From Pseudobutyrivibrio sp. OR37 (GTDB lineage Bacteria; Bacillota; Clostridia; Lachnospirales; Lachnospiraceae): DNA of 40,182 bases. The DNA lies in assembly GCF_900113655.1 (NCBI RefSeq), contig NZ_FOQF01000030.1, positions 1 through 40,182 on the forward strand, given 5' to 3'. Both the position numbers and the translations under genes were made by a program. Below are positions 13,651-37,437 of this stretch, one piece after another. Below the pieces are notes generated by a model. That model searched no databases, had not been told where the DNA came from, and saw only the letters and a program-made list of their open reading frames with translations. How positions within the stretch are numbered: position 1 is the first letter of the stretch; the number at the start of each line of letters is the position of its first letter.

Positions 13651-13661
13651 TGATTTGTCTA
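13632..13661 (-). promoter_or_regulatory. Candidate promoter overlapping the terminator
   Basis: On the minus strand TAGACA (13661-13656) and a perfect TATAAT (13637-13632) are 18 bases apart. The -10 box is exactly in the terminator loop. A transcript from here would start near 13625, after most of the 5' arm, so it could not form the terminator and would run into the glycosyltransferase at 13584. Confidence 0.5.
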
Positions 13662-15083
13662 TTTAGAGCCAGCACCTTTAAATACTACTGCTACTGTTCT
13701 GAACAAAATATTGATATCCAACCCAAGGGACCAGTTTCTGATGTACTGAGTATCAAGGGCTACAACGTCCTCGAAATCAGTGATGTTGCTACGACCTGAA
13801 ACCTGCCACAAACCGGTAAGACCAGGTCGGCCTGCCAGACGTGCCTTGTGATGTAAATCGTATTGTTCGTATTCATTTTCTGTAGGTGGTCTGGTACCTA
13901 CCAGAGACATATCTCCAATTAAAACATTCCAGAACTGTGGCAATTCGTCGATAGAATATTTACGAATGAAATGACCTGCTGGGAAAATTCTAGGATCATT
14001 TTCCATCTTGAACATAAGACCATTCATTTCGTTTTGAGCCATCAATTCTTTCTTTCGCTCTTCTGCATCTACATACATGCTTCGGAACTTATAAAACTTA
14101 AACTTACGGCCATTCTTGCCCACACGTGTCTGTGAAAAGAACACAGGACCTGGTGCCTGAATCTTGATGATAGGTGCAAGGAATATGAATGCAATAGCAC
14201 AAAATACCAAGCCCACAAGACTGCCAAGAATATCAACTAAACGCTTTGCAAAGCTTTCGCGATTAGTAGCGATGTGCATACTAGTTGTCATGGTGATGTA
14301 ATCACCATAGTATTCAATAGCACGATTCTTAAGTAAGTGATCAGTGTGGATGAGTGAAATGTGAACTGTGCATCCCAAATCTGCAAGACGCTCAGCCAAA
14401 AGCTCCTCACTGTATCTATTTTTACCATCGATGAAAACCTCATCGACAACGTGTGTACGGATGTATTCAAAAACCGAATCACAATCACCAACTACTGGGA
14501 CGCCTTGTATCTTTTTACCTACCCAGTTTTTATCGATTACTGCACAACCAACTACCTTGTATTCCACGTAAGGATTGTTGGCAAGCTGTCCTAAGCAATG
14601 CTTAACTGTGCTTGAATCGGCTATAACAAGCATTGAAGATTTGTTAACATCCTCAAGCTTTCTATAGCGAATGATACGCTTGAACATGATTCTGAAGGCA
14701 AACATGATGAGAACCATCAGCGGTGCCCAGGTAAAAATCACTGCTCTTGAAATGTAGCTTGAATATCTGAACGCATATAGAAAAATAAGCAAGCCACACA
14801 AATTAACAAATGAATGAAGGGCTACTGCCCCTAATTCCTGATATTTATTACGATGTACAATACCTGTATATGGATCACGAAGTGAAGCATTTAAGATACT
14901 GATGAAAATAATCATCGTAAATAAGTTTGCATAGATGTATTTGTGTGGGAAATATGCATCTCCTATTATTACACTGTCATATCTAATGTAAATCGCAATT
15001 GCTAAAGCTAGTAATGCTGCCAATGTATCTAATGTTATAAAGTCCCAATGCTTCGCCCAAAATTTCTTTTTTCTTTTATACAT
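13659..15083 (-). CDS. Polyprenyl-phosphate sugar-1-phosphate transferase (initiating enzyme)
   Basis: 474 residues with full WbaP/CpsE-type architecture: about four N-terminal membrane helices, a soluble CoA-binding-3-like domain at roughly 150-255, one more membrane helix at about 285-308, then the bacterial sugar transferase domain. Motifs of the last domain are present: FFSQTRVGKNGRKFKFYKFRSM, SIDELPQFWNVLIGDMSLVG and GRPGLTGLWQVSGRS. It moves a hexose 1-phosphate from a UDP-sugar to undecaprenyl phosphate at the membrane, the first step of repeat-unit synthesis. It follows the UDPGP-family gene by 13 bases and is followed by a strong terminator. The sugar (glucose, galactose or other) cannot be decided. 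Confidence 0.95.
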   Translation of the reverse strand: MYKRKKKFWAKHWDFITLDTLAALLALAIAIYIRYDSVIIGDAYFPHKYIYANLFTMIIFISILNASLRDPYTGIVHRNKYQELGAVALHSFVNLCGLLIFLYAFRYSSYISRAVIFTWAPLMVLIMFAFRIMFKRIIRYRKLEDVNKSSMLVIADSSTVKHCLGQLANNPYVEYKVVGCAVIDKNWVGKKIQGVPVVGDCDSVFEYIRTHVVDEVFIDGKNRYSEELLAERLADLGCTVHISLIHTDHLLKNRAIEYYGDYITMTTSMHIATNRESFAKRLVDILGSLVGLVFCAIAFIFLAPIIKIQAPGPVFFSQTRVGKNGRKFKFYKFRSMYVDAEERKKELMAQNEMNGLMFKMENDPRIFPAGHFIRKYSIDELPQFWNVLIGDMSLVGTRPPTENEYEQYDLHHKARLAGRPGLTGLWQVSGRSNITDFEDVVALDTQYIRNWSLGLDINILFRTVAVVFKGAGSK

Positions 15084-15096
15084 TAGACCCCCTAGC

Positions 15097-16320
15097 TTAA
15101 AGCACTACACCATTTTTTTCCAATAACTCTCTTGCACTATCAACTGAATCTACACCGTGAAGATTCTTGATTGGTGCGAACTCATAATTTCTGTCTACCT
15201 CAAATGCTAAATTGTTATCCATCATGTGAATCATATCGAGAACAAGTAACTCGAACTTGTAGCCGTTAGGCTCTGTAGGAGATACTTTATTTCCGGCTGC
15301 ATCTACATAAGGAATCTTCTTTTCAACAATGTGAACTACCATGTTGTTATCTACGATTTCATCAAGCTTTTCAACTGAGAATAAGTAGTTAAGGATAACA
15401 CCATATTTGTATAGTAAGCTGCCATCAGCTGCCCTTGCTTCTGACATCTCCTTTGACATTTCGTAGTATTCTACGATGCCAGGCTTGCCATCCTCGAGGC
15501 AAAGAAGTCCCATCTTTTCAGCTGGCTCAACCTTACGTACGACCTTGGAACCTGAAACATAATTTCCAAGGATAGTTGCGCCTACGAATAATGGATCTGC
15601 GATACGCTGAAGAACATTATCAACAGCGAATACATTAAGCCACTTAACACCTCTAGCCTGGATGTCGCTCTTAAGGCCTGCCTTAAGTAAAGATGCATAC
15701 CAGCCACCGTTTCCGTTTGGTGATGTAGCAAGGCGTCCCTCTTCCTCAAGAAGAAGCTTGCCGTCATAATCAACAGCACATGCCATATCCTGAATAAAGA
15801 ATTTTACATATTCCGAATTGTATCCGAAATAATCATGTTCTGCGAAGAAATCTCTAGTAGCCTTATCGTTCTTTTCGCTTGTCATGATGTAGAGAGGTAC
15901 GAAAGCATCGGCTTTCTTAACAACCTCAAGAAGATTGTTGATAAGGCACTCGAAGATATATAAATCATGTGTCTGACCAACATTGTAGCAACCCTTTGGT
16001 AGATCAAAACCAAGACGTGTTCCCATTCCACCAGCAAGTAAGATAGCACCAACCTCACCCTTTTTGATTGCCTCAAGACCTGCTGCCTCGAACTCATCCT
16101 TTCTGGCTGCGATTTCTGAAAGCTCGATTGCAGGTGGTACTGCAAACTCTCCCCTAGCTGATGCAGAATCGTTACCGATAAGCTCGAAATCAGCCCAATT
16201 GATATTATCAATCTGAGCTAAAAATGATTCTTTCTGAGCTTCTGAAAGATTATCAAAGCCACGCATAACATGACCCTGTCCGCGACTTTCGAGAAGTTCA
16301 ATTGCTTGTTCTTTTGTCAT
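15097..16320 (-). CDS. UDPGP-family UTP:sugar-1-phosphate uridylyltransferase
   Basis: 407 residues from the ATG at 16320 (GGGAG 8 bases upstream; the frame opens ten codons earlier without a better site). The nucleotide-binding signature LAGGMGTRLGFDLPKG at 95-110 is that of the eukaryote-type UDPGP family (UDP-N-acetylhexosamine or UDP-glucose pyrophosphorylase), not the GalU family. It would make a UDP-sugar in the cytosol, fitting the next gene, which consumes one. Whether it uses GlcNAc-1-P, GalNAc-1-P or glucose-1-P cannot be told. It heads a two-gene unit. Confidence 0.92.
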   Translation of the reverse strand: MTKEQAIELLESRGQGHVMRGFDNLSEAQKESFLAQIDNINWADFELIGNDSASARGEFAVPPAIELSEIAARKDEFEAAGLEAIKKGEVGAILLAGGMGTRLGFDLPKGCYNVGQTHDLYIFECLINNLLEVVKKADAFVPLYIMTSEKNDKATRDFFAEHDYFGYNSEYVKFFIQDMACAVDYDGKLLLEEEGRLATSPNGNGGWYASLLKAGLKSDIQARGVKWLNVFAVDNVLQRIADPLFVGATILGNYVSGSKVVRKVEPAEKMGLLCLEDGKPGIVEYYEMSKEMSEARAADGSLLYKYGVILNYLFSVEKLDEIVDNNMVVHIVEKKIPYVDAAGNKVSPTEPNGYKFELLVLDMIHMMDNNLAFEVDRNYEFAPIKNLHGVDSVDSARELLEKNGVVL

Positions 16321-16376
16321 ATAACTTTCTCCCTTTCCGTTTAATCCCAAAAGTGGATTTCACGCATTTTTCACAG

Positions 16377-16454: not shown

Positions 16455-17504
16455 TCACCCTTTAATCTTTGAGTATTTTTTACTAATTATATCCTTAATA
16501 ACAGGGGCGTATTTTACTACCACGGCACATAATAATACATCTAAAGAAAATCTTATAACCCACACAAAAATAAAGGTTATTATGCCATTCACCTTTTCTC
16601 CAATCACATACCATGGAACTGATATGTACTCAAATGAATGTACGCACAAAAAATACAAGGAATATCTTCCTAACGTTCTGATTTTATTAGAAATAGAACC
16701 AGTGAAAAAATGATTTAATAGCAAAAATATTTTCATAAAAACCACCGGCGCTACAATAAATAGTGACATTGAGAGTAGTAGCAATGGAAATCTCAAACCA
16801 GGAAGTAAAATAAAGCCAACCATAATGGCAATTAAAAATACCGTAAAGAGGATTTTAAAAGCCCTACTCCATTCTGAGGTAAATAATTTATGCTTTTTGC
16901 AATAGTAACCTATGTACAAATACATAAGTGCAAACATACCTCTGCCCACTCCAAAAACACTTATTTTAATATAGCTAAGGAAAACACCAACAATGCTAAT
17001 TAGCAATACTATAATAATATGCCACTTTTCTGGTGCATAGCTAAGGATGAAATCCAATATCATCCATCCCCAAAACAGTGCCAATAAATACCACATTGGC
17101 CCGCAAGAAAACAATTGCACACCCTTAATAACAATGGTATCTGAAAGACCTAAGACCAATCCTGCAAATACTTTTAAAGTTTCTACAACAGCCACTCTTT
17201 TAGAATGCCATACAAACCAACGTATTACTGCGTGCCCAATACATATAAAGAAAGCCGTTATTGCATAAGGTAACAGTATAAGCTTGGCTTGTTGTTCAAA
17301 TGCTTTCTTAACAGGCTTCTTTCTAAATCCATAACCGCTAGAGATGAACAAGGCGACCATAACTATACCTAATATCTGTAGGGCTGTTCCATCTCTTGAC
17401 ACACCTAAATCCTGAATGGTGTGCTCAAACACTACAAGCATCATTGTGACACCCTTTAAAAGGTCAAACATGCCTGCTGTGTTTTTAATTTGTATCTTTT
17501 CCAT
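16455..17504 (-). CDS. Acyltransferase-3 family membrane protein (copy A)
   Basis: 349 residues with about ten hydrophobic helices. The N-terminus KNTAGMFDLLKGVTMMLVVFEHT fits the acyltransferase-3 pattern in which a Lys/Arg in the first helix precedes a conserved His (H28). Such proteins move acyl groups (often acetyl or succinyl) onto sugars across the membrane. The second family-3 protein at 19123-20259 has nearly the same N-terminus, so the two are paralogues. This is the last gene of the unit, 24 bases after the acyl carrier protein gene. The donor may be the carrier protein rather than acyl-CoA, which is inference. Confidence 0.9.
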   Translation of the reverse strand: MEKIQIKNTAGMFDLLKGVTMMLVVFEHTIQDLGVSRDGTALQILGIVMVALFISSGYGFRKKPVKKAFEQQAKLILLPYAITAFFICIGHAVIRWFVWHSKRVAVVETLKVFAGLVLGLSDTIVIKGVQLFSCGPMWYLLALFWGWMILDFILSYAPEKWHIIIVLLISIVGVFLSYIKISVFGVGRGMFALMYLYIGYYCKKHKLFTSEWSRAFKILFTVFLIAIMVGFILLPGLRFPLLLLSMSLFIVAPVVFMKIFLLLNHFFTGSISNKIRTLGRYSLYFLCVHSFEYISVPWYVIGEKVNGIITFIFVWVIRFSLDVLLCAVVVKYAPVIKDIISKKYSKIKG

Positions 17505-17528
17505 AATTCAAAACCTTTATCTCCCCAA

Positions 17529-17747
17529 TTAAAGTACTTTTACAATATCTCCTACTGTCTCAATCTCAAGTGTCTGTTGTTCAGTTATTTTTACACCGAA
17601 TTTTCTAGAAACATTGTTCAAGATTGTCATTATCTCGAGTGACGATAAATCCAAATCATCAATTAAAGAACTATCTTCTTCGATTTCGTCTACAGGTATA
17701 TCTGCAACCTCTTCAATTATTTTTGCTACTTCATCAAATTTTTCCAT
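17529..17747 (-). CDS. Acyl carrier protein of the acylation cassette
   Basis: 72 residues from the ATG at 17747, which has a perfect AGGAGG 7 bases upstream; the longer open frame overlaps the ligase gene and is not needed. It is acidic and helical, typical of phosphopantetheine carriers. The attachment site is DDLDLSSLEIM, with S36 the likely phosphopantetheinylated serine; the usual DSL is here SSL. It lies directly behind an AMP-forming ligase that would load it and before a membrane acyltransferase. It is thus probably a dedicated carrier, not the fatty-acid-synthesis AcpP. Confidence 0.93.
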   Translation of the reverse strand: MEKFDEVAKIIEEVADIPVDEIEEDSSLIDDLDLSSLEIMTILNNVSRKFGVKITEQQTLEIETVGDIVKVL

Positions 17748-17751
17748 TTTT

Positions 17752-19122
17752 CTACCTCCTAATTTTTCCACTGGCTGTTTTTTCAAACTCTTTATTTTGA
17801 AACTCAACAACATGAATCTTTTTAAATATAGGCAACTCTTTATTTAAATCCGAAACATATTGTCGGATAGTTTCCTCATCGCTTTCTTTAGCAAACACTG
17901 CTGCAACTATTTTGTCCTCGCGTTCAAAAACCTTGCACTCTTTAATTAATTGATTTTTATACAAAAGATTCTCCAGCTCTTCAGGGCTAACATTTTCTCC
18001 CCCGGACAGAATGATAAGATTTTTCTTGCGCCCTGTGATATAAAGATATCCATCCTCATCAATATATCCCAAGTCTCCAGTATGAATCATTCCATCGATT
18101 ATCGTATTTGCGGTTTCCGATGGATTGTTGTAATATCCCTTCATACAATTCCAGCTTGAAACACAAATCTCATCATCTATTATTTTAATAACAGCATCAT
18201 TTGTTTTCTGTCCTACCGATACGACTTTATCGGCCACATTACTATTGTAGGTAACATCTCCAAATGTTTCTGTCATTCCATAAAATTGACAGTAATCTAT
18301 GCCATTTTCCAGAAAGAAATCAATGATTTCTCTATCCATTGGTGCGCCTGTTGTACCAACAGCTTTAACACCTCCAAGCTTTTCAACGCCACCTCTTTTA
18401 AGGCGCTTCTTCCACAGCTTCATTGTGGCAGGCGATACAAAGGCAAAATCTATTTTTATCTCCTGTAATTCATTTAGCATGTTTCCAACGTCTTCATTGA
18501 TGTAGGTCATACAGCCTCTATTACACCAGCTGAGCCAGCTGCACAAGCCTGCCGCATGATACAATGGAAATACCAGATATGTAGTTAACAAATCATCCTT
18601 GGTTTCATCACCTACAAATTCCTTTGGAAGAATGTTACGTTTTCTTCCGAAGAGATTTTTAAGAGTAAGCATTACTCCCTTGGGCTTGCCAGTAGTGCCT
18701 GATGTATAGATAATCATCGAAAGACGATTTTCGTCATCTAAATCAAAACTGTATTCCCCTTCCTTTTCATTCTTAAAGCTACAAAAATCTTTAAAGGATT
18801 CCTGACTAATCACATAGTCAATCTCTGCATCAACCAATATCTCTTCAATCACTTCATTTGACTCACGAACATTTATAGGAACTACTACAGCTTTTCCGAG
18901 AATAAGTGCTGCTAATAAAACAAGATATTCATAGCAATTATTTCCCTTTATCGCTACATGCTTGCCTTCAATATTTCCGTAACTTTTCTGCAAATTAGAA
19001 AGCGCTTCCACGATATTAGCGTAATACTGTGTATAAGTGATTTCATGTAAAATATCGTCCCTAAAATATCTGTATGCAATTCTTCCATGATATGATTTTA
19101 TATTCTCAAAAAAATCGTACAT
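17752..19122 (-). CDS. AMP-forming acyl/amino-acid ligase, carrier-loading type
   Basis: 456 residues of the ANL (adenylate-forming) superfamily. Core motifs are present: MIIYTSGTTGKPKGVMLT (about 136-153), FYGMTETFG (A5), IHTGDLGYIDEDGYLY (A7), GRKKNLIILSGGENVSPEE (A8) and the C-terminal KTASGKIRR with the catalytic lysine K453. It would activate a carboxylic or amino acid with ATP and load it onto the carrier protein whose ATG follows only 4 bases later. The length is short for acyl-CoA synthetases and near that of DltA-type enzymes. GGAG is 6 bases before the ATG, which directly abuts the stop of the preceding acyltransferase. The substrate cannot be read from sequence. Confidence 0.92.
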   Translation of the reverse strand: MYDFFENIKSYHGRIAYRYFRDDILHEITYTQYYANIVEALSNLQKSYGNIEGKHVAIKGNNCYEYLVLLAALILGKAVVVPINVRESNEVIEEILVDAEIDYVISQESFKDFCSFKNEKEGEYSFDLDDENRLSMIIYTSGTTGKPKGVMLTLKNLFGRKRNILPKEFVGDETKDDLLTTYLVFPLYHAAGLCSWLSWCNRGCMTYINEDVGNMLNELQEIKIDFAFVSPATMKLWKKRLKRGGVEKLGGVKAVGTTGAPMDREIIDFFLENGIDYCQFYGMTETFGDVTYNSNVADKVVSVGQKTNDAVIKIIDDEICVSSWNCMKGYYNNPSETANTIIDGMIHTGDLGYIDEDGYLYITGRKKNLIILSGGENVSPEELENLLYKNQLIKECKVFEREDKIVAAVFAKESDEETIRQYVSDLNKELPIFKKIHVVEFQNKEFEKTASGKIRR

Positions 19123-20259
19123 TTATTTCTCCGTTTTAGAATTAATAAATTCCACCACTTTATTTTTAATAGTCACAAAACCAAAGCAGATTATCAGATC
19201 TGTTGTGGCTCTAACTAAATACAGCAATATACATCCTACAGTTACATTACCAGTCCATTTGTCTGCGAAATAATAATATGGGAATCCCATCATCTCTATG
19301 GTATGAACACATAAAACATATATGGATAATCTACCTATTTTTCTGATAAATGATGTGATTACTCCTGAGAATCTATTAAGCTGCAAAAAAGCATAAATCA
19401 TAATTAGTCCCATGTAGCCATTTAAGAGAATGGTGATTATACCAAAGGGATACACATTATCTGCCATGCCATCCATATATCCGATGTAACGCATAAAGGC
19501 ATTTGGAAGAATAATCAAAAATAACAATGCCAGCTTTGCCTTTGTACCTAAGCCGCCTGTAAACCATTTTTTCTTTTTGGCATGATATCCAAGGCATATA
19601 TAGAATGCACAAACAGCTCCTTGGGAAATACACCATGGAACAGTATTTCCAAGGCTAAGCAACCAGCCCACAAAAGCTACACCGATTGATGCATACCATA
19701 AAAATTCATCTGGCACATAAGTAAGCAATATATTGAAAATAATTAATCCCCAAAATAATGAGAGTACAAACCATATGGGCCCGCATGAAAAAATCTTTAC
19801 ATCAAAGTAGTAGCTGGTCTTTGAAAGTCCTAGTAAAAATCCACCTGCGATTCTACAGGTTTCCTTTATAGAACCAGGCAGATAATGATACAGTGTATAG
19901 TGCGTACACAAATGAAGCATCGCCGTTAGCACAGCTGTTATGACATAAGGAATAAGCAGTGTGTTTGCCTGCTTTTTGATATTTTTACCTATACCCATCT
20001 TTCGCATTCCATAGCCACTAACGATAAAGAATGCGGGCATCAAAGAATGAGCAAAAATACTATAAATAGTTAACCCCAAATGTGGTAGTAGATGCATTTT
20101 TATCATTGCATCTAAATCAGCCTGATAGGTATTCTTAAAAATAAAGGAATTTGGAAACAGCGCGTATGTATGAACATATATAACCATCAGCATAGTTACG
20201 CCCTTTATAAGGTCAAACATCCCTGCTGTATTTTTTATTTTAAATGTCTTCTCATTCAT
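19123..20259 (-). CDS. Acyltransferase-3 family membrane protein (copy B)
   Basis: 378 residues from the ATG at 20259 (GGAG 6 bases upstream; an ATG at 20280 overlaps no better site). The N-terminus KNTAGMFDLIKGVTMLMVIYVHT matches copy A almost residue for residue, with the conserved His at 30. About ten membrane helices follow. Both copies share CGPIWFVL/CGPMWYLL-like and LCVH segments. It precedes the ligase gene without a gap, so acyl activation and transfer are genetically coupled. It probably acylates a sugar of the exopolysaccharide or its lipid-linked precursor; donor and acceptor are not known. Confidence 0.9.
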   Translation of the reverse strand: MNEKTFKIKNTAGMFDLIKGVTMLMVIYVHTYALFPNSFIFKNTYQADLDAMIKMHLLPHLGLTIYSIFAHSLMPAFFIVSGYGMRKMGIGKNIKKQANTLLIPYVITAVLTAMLHLCTHYTLYHYLPGSIKETCRIAGGFLLGLSKTSYYFDVKIFSCGPIWFVLSLFWGLIIFNILLTYVPDEFLWYASIGVAFVGWLLSLGNTVPWCISQGAVCAFYICLGYHAKKKKWFTGGLGTKAKLALLFLIILPNAFMRYIGYMDGMADNVYPFGIITILLNGYMGLIMIYAFLQLNRFSGVITSFIRKIGRLSIYVLCVHTIEMMGFPYYYFADKWTGNVTVGCILLYLVRATTDLIICFGFVTIKNKVVEFINSKTEK

Positions 20260-20280: not shown

Positions 20281-21219
20281 CTAGCGAAATATTAATTTAA
20301 ATACCGCTGGCGAAATCATAAACAATTCATATTTGAATTTCTGCCTTGTGGTAACTATTTCGCTATATTTATCCAGAACATTTCTCATTTTTGATTTGAT
20401 AGTATTATGATGATGTTCTTCCATCTTGAAGTAATAATCTGCCAGCTTGTACAAGGTATTTCTCAATGTAATTTTGGCAAATCCTATATCATTATTTTCA
20501 AGTGAAACATCAATCCTATCAGCAAATGCATCTATAGCATCTAAATGAGCTATGTTATATTCATTTTCTTTTCCTGTAATCCCTGAAGAATTCATTCTAT
20601 AAACATATTCTTCAAGTGGAACGTAAACCATTTTTTCGATACTGAAGATTAGCTTATTAATCATAAACTCATCCTCGTGAAGTCTGCCTTCTTCGAATCT
20701 GTTGTTGTCGAAAAGCTCTTTTTTATAGAGCTTGTTCCATGACACTACCATCAATGCATATTCTCTTGAAATCAGATTATCAAGCCACCGCCTGCATTCT
20801 GCTGCATCCAGGATGCGGTTTGATGTAATAGGTGACACAAGCACCGGCCATCTGGAGGTAACAACATCGCAAAAGGCCACCTCAGCACCAGTATCTTCAA
20901 TGGCATCTACCATGCATTTGACATAGTCTTCCTGAACAAAATCATCAGAATCCACAAAACAAATATATTCACCTGCTGCATGGTTTAAGCCAGTGTTTCT
21001 TGCGGCAGATAAGCCACCATTGGCCTGATGAATCACTTTTATTCTAGTATCCACCGTAGCCCATTTATCGCAAAGCATGGCGCTGCTATCAGTAGATCCA
21101 TCATCCACCAGTATTATCTCTATATTTGAATAGCTTTGTTTTATCAACGATTCTACGCAAACATCTATAAAGTTTTCCACATTAAAAACCGGTACAATAA
21201 CCGAAACCAACTTTTCCAT
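20281..21219 (-). CDS. Family 2 glycosyltransferase
   Basis: 312 residues with a canonical GT-A N-terminus: VSVIVPVFNVENFI, ILVDDGSTD, HQANGGLSAARNTGL and FVDSDDF as the metal-binding motif. A C-terminal helical part with RLHEDEF is typical of WcaA-like enzymes that extend cell-surface glycans on the cytoplasmic membrane face. It is the second gene of its unit, 5 bases after the GT32 gene and before the acylation cassette. Sugar specificity is unknown. Confidence 0.94.
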   Translation of the reverse strand: MEKLVSVIVPVFNVENFIDVCVESLIKQSYSNIEIILVDDGSTDSSAMLCDKWATVDTRIKVIHQANGGLSAARNTGLNHAAGEYICFVDSDDFVQEDYVKCMVDAIEDTGAEVAFCDVVTSRWPVLVSPITSNRILDAAECRRWLDNLISREYALMVVSWNKLYKKELFDNNRFEEGRLHEDEFMINKLIFSIEKMVYVPLEEYVYRMNSSGITGKENEYNIAHLDAIDAFADRIDVSLENNDIGFAKITLRNTLYKLADYYFKMEEHHHNTIKSKMRNVLDKYSEIVTTRQKFKYELFMISPAVFKLIFR

Positions 21220-22044: not shown

Positions 22045-22980
22045 ATGAAAAAAACGATTACAACAATAATTCCATTTTTTAATAACGCAACCGCTCTTCC
22101 AAGAATGCTTGATAGTATATTTGCTGGCTCTGTAGTGCCAGACGAAATCATTCTTGTAGATGATGGTTCTACGGATAATTCAAAGCAAGTGGTTCAAGGC
22201 TACGCTGTAAATCATCCACAGATTAAATATATTTACAAGACCCACAGCGGTGTTTCTGCTACTAGAAACACTGGCTTGTCCCAGGCTTCCTGCAATCTGA
22301 TTAGCTTTCTTGACGCTGATGATTACATTGAGCCTGATATGTATGAGACAATGCTAGAGCTTTTCGATGATAACTGTGATTGTGTAGTTTGCGGATATTA
22401 CACTCATAAAAATAATGTGGTAACCGCTTACAACGGCTATCAAAAGTCCACATTAGACTCCAGTGAATTTATCAATGCAATGTTCACTTCCGATGATATC
22501 AGAGGCTTTTTATGCACCCGATTATTTAAAGCAGAATTGTTACAAGGCCGCCTGTTCAATACCGATATAAGTGTCTGTGAGGATTTGCTGTTTCAATTTA
22601 ATCTGTTCCTTGACCACAGCCTATCAATCAAATATATCAACAAGTCTTTTTATCATTATGTACAAAATGACAATTCTGCCACCGCTAGTCTAAACCTGAT
22701 AAAAGACGGCTCCTACATATATAAGCCTGCTTTTGATTTGATGCTAAGTATGGCAGATGATGCATATATTCCAGCCATCATCACAGCCTATAATGATACC
22801 CTTGAATACAGCATGTACACATTGCTTAAAAGCTACCGAAGCGGCTGCGACGTATTATCGCATATACGAATCATCCAAAGGCTCTTAAAGGAAATACCAT
22901 ATTCTAAGAAATCCTTACACAGGCTAGCGTACTGCTATTGTCCTGTTTTCTATAGCTTTACATTGCCCCATGAATTTTGA
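22045..22980 (+). CDS. Family 2 glycosyltransferase, probably leaderless
   Basis: 311 residues from the ATG at 22045; the open frame goes back to 21964, but those 27 codons overlap the divergent GT32 start and resemble no glycosyltransferase. The GT-A motifs are TTIIPFFNNATALPRML, ILVDDGSTDNS, SGVSATRNTGL and SFLDADDYI. It is the only plus-strand gene between 10085 and 34069. It stands alone between the GT32 unit and the converging Wzt-like gene, overlapping the latter's 3' end by 31 bases. Its own promoter points to separate control. Sugar and acceptor unknown. Confidence 0.92.
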   Translation: MKKTITTIIPFFNNATALPRMLDSIFAGSVVPDEIILVDDGSTDNSKQVVQGYAVNHPQIKYIYKTHSGVSATRNTGLSQASCNLISFLDADDYIEPDMYETMLELFDDNCDCVVCGYYTHKNNVVTAYNGYQKSTLDSSEFINAMFTSDDIRGFLCTRLFKAELLQGRLFNTDISVCEDLLFQFNLFLDHSLSIKYINKSFYHYVQNDNSATASLNLIKDGSYIYKPAFDLMLSMADDAYIPAIITAYNDTLEYSMYTLLKSYRSGCDVLSHIRIIQRLLKEIPYSKKSLHRLAYCYCPVFYSFTLPHEF

Positions 22981-24188
22981 CGCCATCTTAGGCGTCCTTC
23001 CTCATGAGGGCGATTTATATTAATTTCCAATCCGCTGACGCAATCCAAATCGATGCCATCATCATAAGGACTTAAGGCAAATAAAGTATAGAATGTCTTA
23101 TAGTTGCCATTCATTATCCTGGTTAAATCAACTGATACCTTAAAGCTTCCTGTATCATTAGCTTCCCCACCAGCAACATCATAAAATACCTGTGTTGCAA
23201 AAGGGCGGCCTACCTTTTCATCTATAAGCTCTACCCTGCAGCCAACTTTTGTGACTGGTTTATTGCATATATATTTGAAATTAATATCTAGCTTGTCTGA
23301 AACAACTTCATCATAGGAAGAAGACCCATATTCTGCCCATGTAAGTCTGATATCATCACGCTGCAACCAGCCTGGTCTGATATATTTTGCAAAATCGGCA
23401 GTTGTATTAGTCTTAACCTCAGATCCGTTGTAAAGCTTAATCGCCTCATCAACAGGACCATCAAAAGCAAGTTTGCCGTGGTTAAGCACTAAACATCTAT
23501 CACATAATGTGCTTACCGTATCCATATTGTGACTGACATAAAGCACTGTTCTTCCTTCGTTTTTGGCAATTTCTTTCATTTTATTCAAGCATTTGTGCTG
23601 AAACTTAACATCCCCAACTGCAAGGACCTCATCCATAATCATGATGTCTGCATCCAAATGAGCCGCCACTGAAAATGCAAGCTTTACATACATACCAGAT
23701 GAATATCTCTTGACTGGCGTATCTATAAAATCCTGACATTCAGAAAATTCTATAATGGAATCAATCTTTTTATCGATTTCCTGGCGTTTCATTCCAAGGA
23801 TAGAGCCATTTAGATAAATGTTTTCACGTCCTGTAAGCTCTGGATGAAAGCCTGTTCCAACCTCTAGCATGCTGGCCACTTTGCCATCGATACAAATGCG
23901 CCCCCTGGTAGGAGTAGTGATGCGAGATATAAGCTTGAGAAGCGTAGATTTGCCTGCCCCATTTGAGCCGATAATGCCCACACATTCTCCTTTTGATACC
24001 ACAAAAGACACATCATCTAATGCACTGAAATATCTATTGTGAAGCTTGGCTACATCTACTTCATTCATTTTTGACTTGTTCAAACGAAGCTTTAAGGCAT
24101 CCTTTAGGGTGTCGCCACTAACAGCGCCTAGCATGTAATCCTTGCCTACATTTTCAATTTTTAATACTAAGTCTTTGTTATCTGTCAT
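22950..24188 (-). CDS. ABC transporter ATPase for polysaccharide export, Wzt-like with C-terminal extension
   Basis: 412 residues. The ATPase domain has Walker A GSNGAGKST (74-82), signature YSSGMYVKLAFSVAAHL, Walker B IMIMDEVLAVGD and the switch histidine in YVSHNMD; GFHPELTGRENIYLNG is typical of TagH/Wzt polysaccharide exporters. A second domain of about 145 residues after position 265 is beta-rich and resembles the Wzt C-terminal domain, which in studied systems recognises the glycan's terminal modification. It pairs with the permease at 25114-25956, although a GT2 gene lies between them and overlaps this gene's start by 11 bases. It would power export of lipid-linked polysaccharide. Its 3' end is antisense to the converging glycosyltransferase. 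Confidence 0.94.
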   Translation of the reverse strand: MTDNKDLVLKIENVGKDYMLGAVSGDTLKDALKLRLNKSKMNEVDVAKLHNRYFSALDDVSFVVSKGECVGIIGSNGAGKSTLLKLISRITTPTRGRICIDGKVASMLEVGTGFHPELTGRENIYLNGSILGMKRQEIDKKIDSIIEFSECQDFIDTPVKRYSSGMYVKLAFSVAAHLDADIMIMDEVLAVGDVKFQHKCLNKMKEIAKNEGRTVLYVSHNMDTVSTLCDRCLVLNHGKLAFDGPVDEAIKLYNGSEVKTNTTADFAKYIRPGWLQRDDIRLTWAEYGSSSYDEVVSDKLDINFKYICNKPVTKVGCRVELIDEKVGRPFATQVFYDVAGGEANDTGSFKVSVDLTRIMNGNYKTFYTLFALSPYDDGIDLDCVSGLEININRPHEEGRLRWRQNSWGNVKL

Positions 24189-25113: not shown

Positions 25114-25956
25114 CTATATAATATCTATAAAATTCTTTTCTGTTTGGTTGAAAGCTACTACAGCAACGGCGCCAGCGATTATCGTAAATACGATACTATA
25201 TAGTAATGCCATATAATTTATTTGCCCCGAAGCTATCACACAATACCTAAAAGCCTCCACTAAGGATGACATAGGATTTATATAAACAAAATTCCTAATA
25301 GCTTCTGGAAGCTGATTTGTAGTATACATAACAGGCGACAGGTACATAAGAACTGTAATCGCTATACCTGTTACATGCGTAAAATCACGATATTTGATGG
25401 TAAGACAGGAAACTATCATTCCAAGGGCCGCTCCAAGCACACCTGCAAGCAGTGCCAGTGGTAGAATTCCAATAATCCTAATCGAAATCATTTCCACATC
25501 ACCATTTAAATAAAAGGCCAACCATACGCAAAGTGTCACCAAAAATTTAATACCATTTCTAATCGCATTAAATAATATATTTGAAATAGGCATAATCAGC
25601 CTTGGGAAATAGACCTTTCCAAACAAATAGCTATTATCCATCAAAACCGAGGTATTGCTGGTAAAACAATTTGCAAAGAAATCCCAAACAACACTTCCTG
25701 CCATGTAAAATAAAAAGTATGGCGTACCATCTGTATCGAAATTTCCAACATATCCAAATACGAACGAAAAGATACCTGAATTGATTATGAGATTGAATAT
25801 CAGCCATAATGGCCCCAAAATAGTCTGCTTATACTGAACTTCGTAATTACGTTTTACTAAAGTCCACACAAGCTCTCGATATTTAATTATTTCTCTAACC
25901 GGGATACTAAAAAGTGGTGCCTTAGGCTCTATCACGGTTGACCATTCTTTTTCCAT
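25114..25956 (-). CDS. ABC-2 type polysaccharide export permease, Wzm-like
   Basis: 280 residues with about six membrane helices and the ABC-2 pattern seen in Wzm/TagG: LVWTLVKRNYEVQYKQTILGPLWLIF before the first helix, FPRLIMPIS in the middle, and YLSPVMYT...NPMSSLVEAFRY near the fifth. It forms the membrane pore partner of the Wzt-like ATPase at 22950-24188. AGGA stands 6 bases before the ATG, which comes 2 bases after the upstream glycosyltransferase stop. Together they indicate ABC-transporter-dependent export of at least one glycan made here. Confidence 0.94.
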   Translation of the reverse strand: MEKEWSTVIEPKAPLFSIPVREIIKYRELVWTLVKRNYEVQYKQTILGPLWLIFNLIINSGIFSFVFGYVGNFDTDGTPYFLFYMAGSVVWDFFANCFTSNTSVLMDNSYLFGKVYFPRLIMPISNILFNAIRNGIKFLVTLCVWLAFYLNGDVEMISIRIIGILPLALLAGVLGAALGMIVSCLTIKYRDFTHVTGIAITVLMYLSPVMYTTNQLPEAIRNFVYINPMSSLVEAFRYCVIASGQINYMALLYSIVFTIIAGAVAVVAFNQTEKNFIDII

Positions 25957-35477: not shown

Positions 35478-36125
35478 CTATCGAATTCTATTTTCAAGAT
35501 ACCACAAAACTATTCCACAGTATTCCTTTAGATTGCCTTTATCATCTCTACTGAGATAATGCTGATATATTTTGCGCAAATCTCCATTAGACCATGTGCC
35601 ACTTTTCTTTCTTTTACACATTATTCTAATGAATTCATCATATACAGCCTTACGATTTTCCTTAAGGAAATATGTTTTTGAATTAAGATTTAATGTTTTG
35701 TTTAAATCTTTATTTATCTCTTCATTATCAGAATAAATCTCACCTGTCAAAGTATTATACTTTATCAACGAAATTAATGTAGCATCTCTTGGGTCTATTG
35801 TAAGTTTCTCACTTTTCCTGTTAGAATCACATGTTAATTCAGAAGATTTTGTATCTTTCTCATGTCCATAGCAACACCCGAGCATATTATTATAATTTAG
35901 CCGCTCATAATCTGTAAGCTTTTCTTCAGGTATCCAATGCTCTATCTTCATAGCATTTTCAGAAATTCTTTGCATACAATAAGCACATAAATTTCCCTGT
36001 TCATGCAGTAAAGACTTACGTATATCATCTTTACATTCTGTCTCTAATCCAGCATAAGAGGCACCAATTTTTTTCTTATATTCAGTAAGTGACTTCGGCT
36101 CTTGCCCCTTCTTTATATATATCAT
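35478..36125 (-). CDS. ptuB: HNH endonuclease, PtuB-like (Septu anti-phage system)
   Basis: 215 residues. The HNH core spans about 47-111: CAYC (C47, C50), KIEHW with E62-H63, NYNNMLGCC (N79/N80, C84) and C99, then KLTIDPRD. This is the arrangement of the PtuB/TIGR02646-type HNH nucleases found with Septu and some retron systems (family knowledge). It starts 6 bases after the ATPase stop, with GGAG 9 bases before the ATG inside the ATPase gene. In Septu, PtuB is the effector that cuts nucleic acid when the PtuA ATPase senses infection. No reverse transcriptase is next to it, so a retron is not indicated. Confidence 0.82.
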   Translation of the reverse strand: MIYIKKGQEPKSLTEYKKKIGASYAGLETECKDDIRKSLLHEQGNLCAYCMQRISENAMKIEHWIPEEKLTDYERLNYNNMLGCCYGHEKDTKSSELTCDSNRKSEKLTIDPRDATLISLIKYNTLTGEIYSDNEEINKDLNKTLNLNSKTYFLKENRKAVYDEFIRIMCKRKKSGTWSNGDLRKIYQHYLSRDDKGNLKEYCGIVLWYLENRIR

Positions 36126-36131
36126 AATAAA

Positions 36132-37400
36132 TTACTCCGTAAACATCTTTTCTAATTCAAGGCGCTCCCTACATTTAACAACCATTGGATGTTCATCCCC
36201 CAGTTCCCTTTTCAAAGCCATCAAATGTTCTTCTGCTTCATCTAGTAGCTGATTATCGATAGAACGATTAAAATCATTTACTATTCTGTCTACTGCACTA
36301 GGTAGTGACTGCGCTTTCTGATAATTTTCCAGTGTAGCATTCACATCTAAACCATACATTGAAGTACGATAATAATAATCTTCCTCATCAATATCTATGA
36401 TATTAACATTTTTTGCCGATGCAATGATAATAGGCGCATGTGTTGTTGCAATAAACTGAACATTTGGAAAGACATAACGAAGTGCTTCTATTACATTCCA
36501 TTGCCATCTTGGGTGAAGGTGCATATCTATTTCATCAATCAGAATAACTCCAGCAGTCTTTGTAATTTCAAATCCATAATCAGGGTTCAACACAGCCATA
36601 CGATATGCTATATCAAATACCATCCAGATAAGAGATTGATATCCTGCACTTAATTGATTAACAGGCAAAATATCATTACCAGCAGAGTACATTATTTCCT
36701 CTAGCTGATGATCATAGAATATCTCATAGTCCCCCCTAAGTACACCACTTTCCATGATACTCATGAACTCTGCTACGGCTTTTTTGGCAGCTTCATATTC
36801 AGCAATCTTTTTTTGCATCCTAAAACTAGCTAGTTCCATTTTGACACACCAGTTTTTTAACCTTTTTATATTAGATGCTTCACCAAGAGCATCTCTATAT
36901 CCCAGGCTTCTATCCTGCTTATTACCCTTAGTGATTTTTGTATCGTTCTTTTGAGACCACACACGAGCCGCAGCCTCATATACAATAATAGGTAATTCAC
37001 CGCCTTCTTTTGTGGATAATTCTTCTGCCAATTTTACTATTTGTCTAGGCTGTATTGTACTTCTAGATGCATTAACGCTATTTCTGGTTCTAATCCATTC
37101 AATTTTTTGATTATGAATTGTTGCATAACAAGTAACCTCGACAGGAGTATGTGTAAGCTTTATACACGAACCATCGCCTGCTCGCTGATACTCTGCACGT
37201 ATTTCATCAATAGAAAAATGTCTAGAATACACATTTGGAACTCCAGCAATAAAGCCTCCCAATCCTACAGATATCGCCTCTAGAATAGATGTCTTTCCCT
37301 TTCCATTCTCACCAATAACAAGATTAAAGCCAGGCTTAAAATCAAAATTTCTATATTCTATTCCTCTAAAATTTCTAATTTCAATACTATTTAGTATCAT
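36132..37400 (-). CDS. ptuA: AAA/ABC-type ATPase, PtuA-like (Septu anti-phage system)
   Basis: 422 residues from the ATG at 37400, with GTGGAG 6 bases upstream; an in-frame GTG at 37412 overlaps that site. It begins ILNSIEIRNFRGIEYRNF with Walker A GENGKGKT (30-37). The signature-like QLSAGYQSLIWM, Walker B GVILIDEIDMHLHP and the switch FIATTHAPIII follow, as in OLD/RecF-like ATPases. A coiled insertion lies between. Together with the HNH gene directly downstream this is the PtuA-PtuB pair of Septu. The ATPase is thought to hold and regulate the nuclease in a complex. The two genes form their own unit within the polysaccharide region. Confidence 0.83.
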   Translation of the reverse strand: MILNSIEIRNFRGIEYRNFDFKPGFNLVIGENGKGKTSILEAISVGLGGFIAGVPNVYSRHFSIDEIRAEYQRAGDGSCIKLTHTPVEVTCYATIHNQKIEWIRTRNSVNASRSTIQPRQIVKLAEELSTKEGGELPIIVYEAAARVWSQKNDTKITKGNKQDRSLGYRDALGEASNIKRLKNWCVKMELASFRMQKKIAEYEAAKKAVAEFMSIMESGVLRGDYEIFYDHQLEEIMYSAGNDILPVNQLSAGYQSLIWMVFDIAYRMAVLNPDYGFEITKTAGVILIDEIDMHLHPRWQWNVIEALRYVFPNVQFIATTHAPIIIASAKNVNIIDIDEEDYYYRTSMYGLDVNATLENYQKAQSLPSAVDRIVNDFNRSIDNQLLDEAEEHLMALKRELGDEHPMVVKCRERLELEKMFTE

Positions 37401-37437
37401 ACTGTTCTCCACTTAATAACGATAATGTACCAAATAA

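Follow-up and report, generated by a model that had tools for sequence, protein, structure and literature searches.

In a 40,182-nucleotide contig of Pseudobutyrivibrio sp. OR37 (NZ_FOQF01000030.1; hereafter the window, contig C56 of a 3.56 Mb genome rated 99.99% complete), we analysed a four-gene cassette that combines an AMP-forming acid ligase, a dedicated acyl carrier protein (ACP) and two acyltransferase-3 (AT3) membrane proteins, and we consider it fairly probable that the ligase charges the ACP and that the AT3s, which belong to one divergent clade, use acyl-ACP rather than acyl-coenzyme A (acyl-CoA) to decorate exopolysaccharide. The cassette occupies positions 16455-20259 on the minus strand, in the order AT3a (19123..20259; 378 residues), ligase (17752..19122; 456 residues), carrier (17529..17747; 72 residues) and AT3b (16455..17504; 349 residues), with intergenic gaps of 0, 4 and 24 bases counted on the sequence. 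All four genes exceed the curated Pfam cut-offs: AT3a and AT3b matched Acyl_transf_3 (PF01757; E-values of 2.8e-18 and 1.1e-16, with bit scores of 66.5 and 61.2 against a cut-off of 31), the ligase matched AMP-binding (PF00501; 9.1e-44) and the carrier matched PP-binding (PF00550; 2.9e-12, with 47.1 bits against a cut-off of 20.8). A preliminary description of this DNA, made from its letters alone, had reported four adjacent genes (a ligase, a 72-residue carrier and two paralogous AT3s) spaced from abutting to 24 bases, and Pfam and the sequence bear out both points. The two membrane proteins share 32% identity across 377 columns, which marks them as paralogues, and no MBOAT match was found for either, PF01757 being the sole Pfam family matched at E ≤ 1.

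The evidence on the acyl donor centres on RXXR, a motif tied to acyl-CoA binding in passages of PMC9558356 and in part 1 of section 6 of PMC12423673. In a tree calculated with the RXXR columns excluded (and without L191, L192 and C_L111_2492, which are fragments or contain masked letters), AT3a and AT3b fell within a single AT3 clade with a support of 100 in the Shimodaira–Hasegawa-like approximate likelihood ratio test (SH-aLRT), and the first RXXR position was basic in 0 of the 35 clade members versus 73 of the 81 other AT3s. AT3a retains the motif of transmembrane helix 1 (TMH1) as K19-x10-H30, with Q97 and T100 replacing the two arginines of the canonical RXXR; AT3b retains K17-x10-H28 and has likewise lost RXXR. 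Other conserved positions persist in the clade, including the His (35 of 35), a Gly in TMH2 (34 of 35, the remaining one masked) and a Gly in TMH6 (35 of 35). Because these proteins match the Pfam AT3 family and fail the RXXR feature, they were filed as a divergent clade rather than as canonical AT3s. With the predicted model of AT3a, a stand-alone AT3 protein, Foldseek itself gave no match at E ≤ 0.001; in a second look with VIA-align, HGSNAT was the closest to the model. The TMH1 lysine in place of arginine was also considered as a mark of ACP use and was dropped, given that 17 of the 81 other AT3s have lysine there and that the motif is written R/K-x10-H in passages of PMC9558356.

The conserved positions kept by the clade would also suit an alternative in which AT3a and AT3b, like the AT3s studied so far, take acetyl-CoA or a different acyl-CoA, with the ligase and ACP serving a separate step of the same operon. 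The donors shown for AT3s are acyl-CoAs, and the review PMC9558356, in the passages that bear on donors, names acyl-CoA and not ACP. We nevertheless regard this alternative as unlikely, given the loss of RXXR in all 35 clade members and given three features of the wider genomic record: linkage of ACP and ligase genes specifically to this clade, identical presence of AT3 and ligase across genomes, and fusion of the two in one protein.

The preliminary description had made its reading depend on the genes occurring together elsewhere, and they do recur together in the genus and the family. The order AT3-ligase-ACP-AT3 was found in three Pseudobutyrivibrio records (L005, L006 and L007; ligase identity 76-88%), so the four-gene grouping exceeds chance, and the same order is carried by G312. 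Other layouts include AT3-AT3-ligase-ACP (G116), AT3-ACP-ligase (G153 and several more in the genus) and AT3-ligase-ACP-ligase-ACP (G039), and more distant sets were present in other genera of the family (G025, G092, G237, G183, G1486 and others), most of them adjoining flippase, glycosyltransferase or sugar-transferase genes. For a count that was blind to neighbouring genes, genomes were searched with an alignment (A3) built from 13 cassette AT3s. Among 29 genomes of the genus (E ≤ 1e-40), all 22 AT3 places had an ACP and/or a ligase within 1.5 kb flanks; among 397 sampled genomes of the family (E ≤ 1e-22, with at most four candidates scored per genome), the 25 AT3 places comprised 17 clade members, 16 of which had an ACP and/or ligase partner, and 8 non-clade AT3s, none of which did. 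The seeds of A3 make up 9 of the 22 genus hits and 7 of the 17 family clade hits, and with seeds removed the linkage was 13 of 13 in the genus and 9 of 10 in the family. Consistent with this specificity, 28 non-cassette AT3s among 30 flanked loci from eight genomes had neither an ACP nor a ligase nearby (75 of 89 AT3 places were retrieved, 30 with flanks and 45 by region; of the other 14, ten were cassette AT3s already included, and the remaining four comprised a disrupted frame, a fragment, a further piece of a locus already counted and a weak match).

Presence and absence were linked as well. The AT3 clade (E ≤ 1e-40) and the cassette ligase (E ≤ 1e-150, a threshold chosen after a gap from 4e-155 to 1e-92 had been seen) were present in the identical 15 of the 29 genus genomes, a perfect match with a probability of 1.3e-8 under the assumption of independent genomes, which these are not. 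One of these sets (G318) is split yet complete, with AT3 and ACP together on contig C18 and a lone ligase on C15. In another genus (G092; L219 and L220), AT3 and AMP-binding domains are fused in one protein of 1191 residues (L220:120-3695, minus strand). The middle part of this protein matches the ligase profile only piecewise, perhaps as the decayed remains of a second ligase, and G092 has an ACP-AT3-ligase set besides. Searches of 391 genomes of the class and 398 of the phylum returned clade AT3s only in the window's genus, with at most five candidates scored per genome, a depth that does not establish absence elsewhere; a plasmid search gave 26 records, all below 60% identity, with the ten listed ones at 28-31%.

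The 22 genus AT3 places correspond to 17 loci, 12 of which have one intact AT3. The pair of AT3 proteins that the preliminary description had put at the membrane step is therefore not essential to the scheme; because a single AT3 suffices in most relatives, the two proteins of the window probably serve two acceptor sites. An AT3 remnant of 113 residues also lies between two ligases, near a full-length AT3, in G319 (L101:7560-7901). Separately, genes resembling alpha/beta-hydrolases or esterases occur near AT3 at three distant loci (L225:1893-2732, L227:8459-9343 and L223:8348-9337) and may encode de-acylating or thioesterase partners.

The kinship of the ligase bears on how the acyl group would reach the carrier. 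Alignments placed all core motifs in the protein (the P-loop, YGMTE, TGD and the C-terminal Lys in TASGKIRR), with FPLYHAAG as its A4 motif. Among 35 loci of more distant ligase relatives, 32 include an ACP and 32 a condensation protein of the nonribosomal peptide synthetase type (by a profile built from five of those loci), and no AT3 was found in any of the 35. At one such locus (L042), the condensation protein matches PDB entry 12KH at 7.6e-110, which is OaaC of the fatty-acid-amide pathway of Coprococcus eutactus, and the adjoining ligase is 33% identical to that of the window (E 1e-71). According to PMC13142362, OaaA of that pathway activates oleic acid and charges OaaACP with it, and OaaC gave no product from oleoyl-CoA. 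Since the characterised kin charge a free ACP with fatty acids, the ligase-to-ACP step is well founded by kinship. The window's genome also encodes a ligase-ACP-condensation trio of the fatty-acid-amide type (G000:C52:57828-59309; L067).

A ligase that makes acyl-CoA, or an acyl group passed from ACP to CoA, would leave the AT3 receiving acyl-CoA after all. The best NCBIfam matches of the ligase are indeed CoA ligases, all below their cut-offs, and 7 of the 26 genus ligases of the cassette type have no ACP next to them; against this stand the ACPs that adjoin nearly all of the more distant relatives, the ACP loading by characterised kin and the loss of RXXR, for which such a route gives no reason, and we consider it distinctly improbable.

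The same kinship bears on the substrate, for which the preliminary description had named an amino acid, a hydroxy acid or a short fatty acid. The substrate is likely a carboxylic acid without an alpha-amine: the amino acid becomes the least likely of the options because characterised kin load fatty acids onto ACP, and the other acids stay, so that the acyl group may be a fatty, short or hydroxy acid. An amine-binding Asp is a feature of amino-acid ligases; in the window ligase, aligned without a DltA, A190 follows H189 within FPLYHAAG. If the Asp rule applies here, the difference would also speak against esterification of an amino acid such as D-alanine in the manner of Dlt, with AT3 in place of DltB. 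That alternative shares with the cassette the logic of a ligase, a dedicated carrier and a membrane transferase; it is set against the absence of any MBOAT match in AT3a and AT3b, the fatty acids activated by ligase kin, and the 17 NCBIfam matches of the carrier at E ≤ 1, which include no DltC model (a model that the library contains), and it seems very unlikely. The Dlt-mirroring sequence of activation, loading and transfer put forward in the preliminary description accordingly survives as logic, which the fusion, the presence and absence in 29 genomes and the RXXR loss favour, and does not extend to kinship, the characterised kin of the ligase being loaders of fatty acids.

Other features of the ligase give less direction. 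Trp residues in an SWLSW motif, none of which were seen in the condensation-type ligases aligned, hint at a different substrate pocket, and the predicted model is poor (predicted local distance difference test score, pLDDT, of 45.0; predicted template modelling score, pTM, of 0.36), too poor for its pocket to indicate substrate or chain length. In an unrooted tree with long branches, the distant sets have cassette ligases that stand apart from those of the genus, some nearest to condensation-type ligases; the AT3 clade may therefore have recruited such ligases more than once.

The carrier has a predicted pantetheine site at Ser36, in LSSL, which is invariant in 10 of 10 aligned carriers, and it is 23-30% identical to the genome's other three ACP hits. 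The sole match to a phosphopantetheinyl transferase (PPTase; PF01648) in the window's genome lies at G000:C19:75054-75290 (L229), in a frame of ~220 residues. As the genome is nearly complete, one PPTase may serve all carriers.

Several observations weigh against an ACP-fed AT3. The loss of RXXR is confined to one clade and therefore represents one evolutionary event rather than a repeated correlation, and the second Arg is already missing from most aligned rows of related AT3s outside the cassettes; the TMH1 lysine, shared with 17 of the 81 other AT3s, is unspecific. The carrier has LSS where DSL is the common motif of fatty-acid ACPs. Linkage is also incomplete: the seven genus ligases without a nearby ACP are without a nearby AT3 too (one of them on a 4.9 kb contig), for three further genus ligases the nearest ACP and AT3 are 3-5 kb away, the clade AT3 of G053 (L204) has no visible ACP or ligase, G009 and G1462 have AT3-ACP with no recognised ligase in the stretch examined, and the ligase frame of G299 is split in two. 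Finally, several genus cassettes lie outside polysaccharide operons, a point that concerns the acceptor.

In the window itself, the surroundings are those of a surface-polysaccharide locus. A family 2 glycosyltransferase gene (20281..21219, minus strand; Pfam) ends 21 bases upstream of AT3a, as such a gene also adjoins AT3a in L113, L115 and L116. Downstream of the cassette lie a UDP-sugar pyrophosphorylase (15097..16350, minus strand; PF01704), which probably starts at the ATG at 16320 (leaving a gap of 134 bases to AT3b, versus 104 with the TTG at 16350), and then a sugar transferase (13659-15083). An ABC ATPase (ATP-binding cassette; 22950-24188; Pfam) and a permease-like gene (25114-25956; it shares 41% identity with a protein of L218 that matches ABC2_membrane) complete the set. 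It is these glycosyltransferase, ATPase, sugar-transferase and pyrophosphorylase neighbours that identify the locus. A PtuA/PtuB (Septu) anti-phage pair also lies inside the polysaccharide region (35478-37412, minus strand; PADLOC, PtuB 1.2e-72 and PtuA 1.2e-161).

The polysaccharide operon named in the preliminary description thus holds for the window, and for several other copies it does not. A second AT3-ACP-ligase locus, conserved in the genus (L104, L105, L106, L109, L114 and L117), has as neighbours an HD-domain protein, an ABC importer and a thiamine transporter, a setting that would suit an acceptor other than exopolysaccharide. With the same ACP-to-AT3 chemistry and a cell-wall polymer or glycolipid as acceptor, this reading differs from ours in the acceptor only; we find it doubtful without being negligible, considering that the cassettes of the window and of L113, L115, L116, L218, L221, L222, L224-L227, L098, L101 and L044 lie among polysaccharide genes (glycosyltransferase, sugar-transferase or polysaccharide-export genes).

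Comparison within the genus suggests that the cassette is a variable part of this locus. All 29 genus genomes carry the pair of pyrophosphorylase and sugar transferase, and the cassette adjoins the pyrophosphorylase in 4 of 29 (2 of 29 are not assessable, owing to a contig end at that spot). Relative to the window, G302 and G304 have an AT3b of just 48-49% identity next to an AT3a of 88-90%; identity is 72-96% for the five genes compared beyond AT3b and 66-92% for the five on the other side, past AT3a. Identity to the window in G312 is 63-72% for the four genes of the cassette and 83-95% for the two genes that flank it on each side. From these identities AT3b appears as the fast-diverging partner of AT3a, and the divergence pattern together with the patchy placement marks the cassette as a segment of the coat locus that is diversifying and specific to strains.

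In the mechanism that we propose with an ACP donor and exopolysaccharide as acceptor, the ligase would use ATP to activate a free carboxylic acid to an acyl-adenylate and would transfer the acyl group straight to the pantetheine arm of the cassette's own ACP, two steps suggested by knowledge of the ligase family. Acyl-ACP would then dock on AT3a or AT3b at the cytoplasmic side, and the acyl-pantetheine arm would enter the AT3 transmembrane channel in place of acyl-CoA, a transfer to which the linkage, the fusion and the motif loss point. The channel His would pass the acyl group to hydroxyls of exopolysaccharide, or of a lipid-linked repeat, at the outer face, with polysaccharide proposed as the acceptor from the gene neighbourhood.

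AT3 proteins are a main bacterial route of surface-glycan acylation. If the proposal is correct, glycan decoration could be freed from the CoA pool, making usable those acids that have no standing CoA esters, and a carrier-protein route would move acyl groups across the membrane onto glycans independently of MBOAT and Dlt. The clade would also provide a natural way to test which residues in AT3s are responsible for recognising the nucleotide half of CoA. Its distribution covers Pseudobutyrivibrio of the rumen and some further genera of that family; in the strain group to which the window belongs, the cassette forms part of a strain-variable surface-polysaccharide locus. Literature searches confined to open-licence PubMed Central papers returned no description of an ACP-fed AT3.

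Together, these results partly support the interpretation given in the preliminary description and place the cassette among several known systems. It resembles the AT3/TmAT (transmembrane acyltransferase) proteins OafB, OatA, OpgC and HGSNAT in Pfam family and in the R/K-x10-H motif, and by VIA-align the AT3a model came closest to HGSNAT; it differs in belonging to a clade without RXXR that is tied to an ACP and a ligase, studied members using acyl-CoA as far as the cited passages describe them. With OaaA, OaaACP and OaaC of C. eutactus it shares a free-standing ligase and a small ACP of related sequence, the Oaa ligase loading its ACP; there, acyl-ACP passes to a condensation enzyme that forms a small amide, whereas Pfam finds no condensation enzyme among the four cassette genes, which have AT3 membrane proteins instead. 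DltABCD likewise combines a ligase, a dedicated carrier and a membrane transferase; in contrast, the cassette lacks an MBOAT protein and its ligase is kin to fatty-acid ligases. Elsewhere in the window's genome, four MBOAT (PF03062) matches occur on contigs C26, C35 and C49 (L230-L233). In AlmEFG of Vibrio, too, a ligase, a dedicated carrier and an acyltransferase modify a surface glycolipid, with glycine as the substrate and a transferase of a different family. As judged from its genes, the cassette is thus neither a Dlt system nor a fatty-acid-amide pathway, and its membrane proteins are AT3s by Pfam that fail the canonical RXXR feature; on balance, we favour the view that it represents an ACP-dependent branch of the AT3/TmAT proteins, in which the RXXR contact with CoA has been given up in favour of a dedicated ACP charged by a ligase related to those of fatty-acid-amide pathways.

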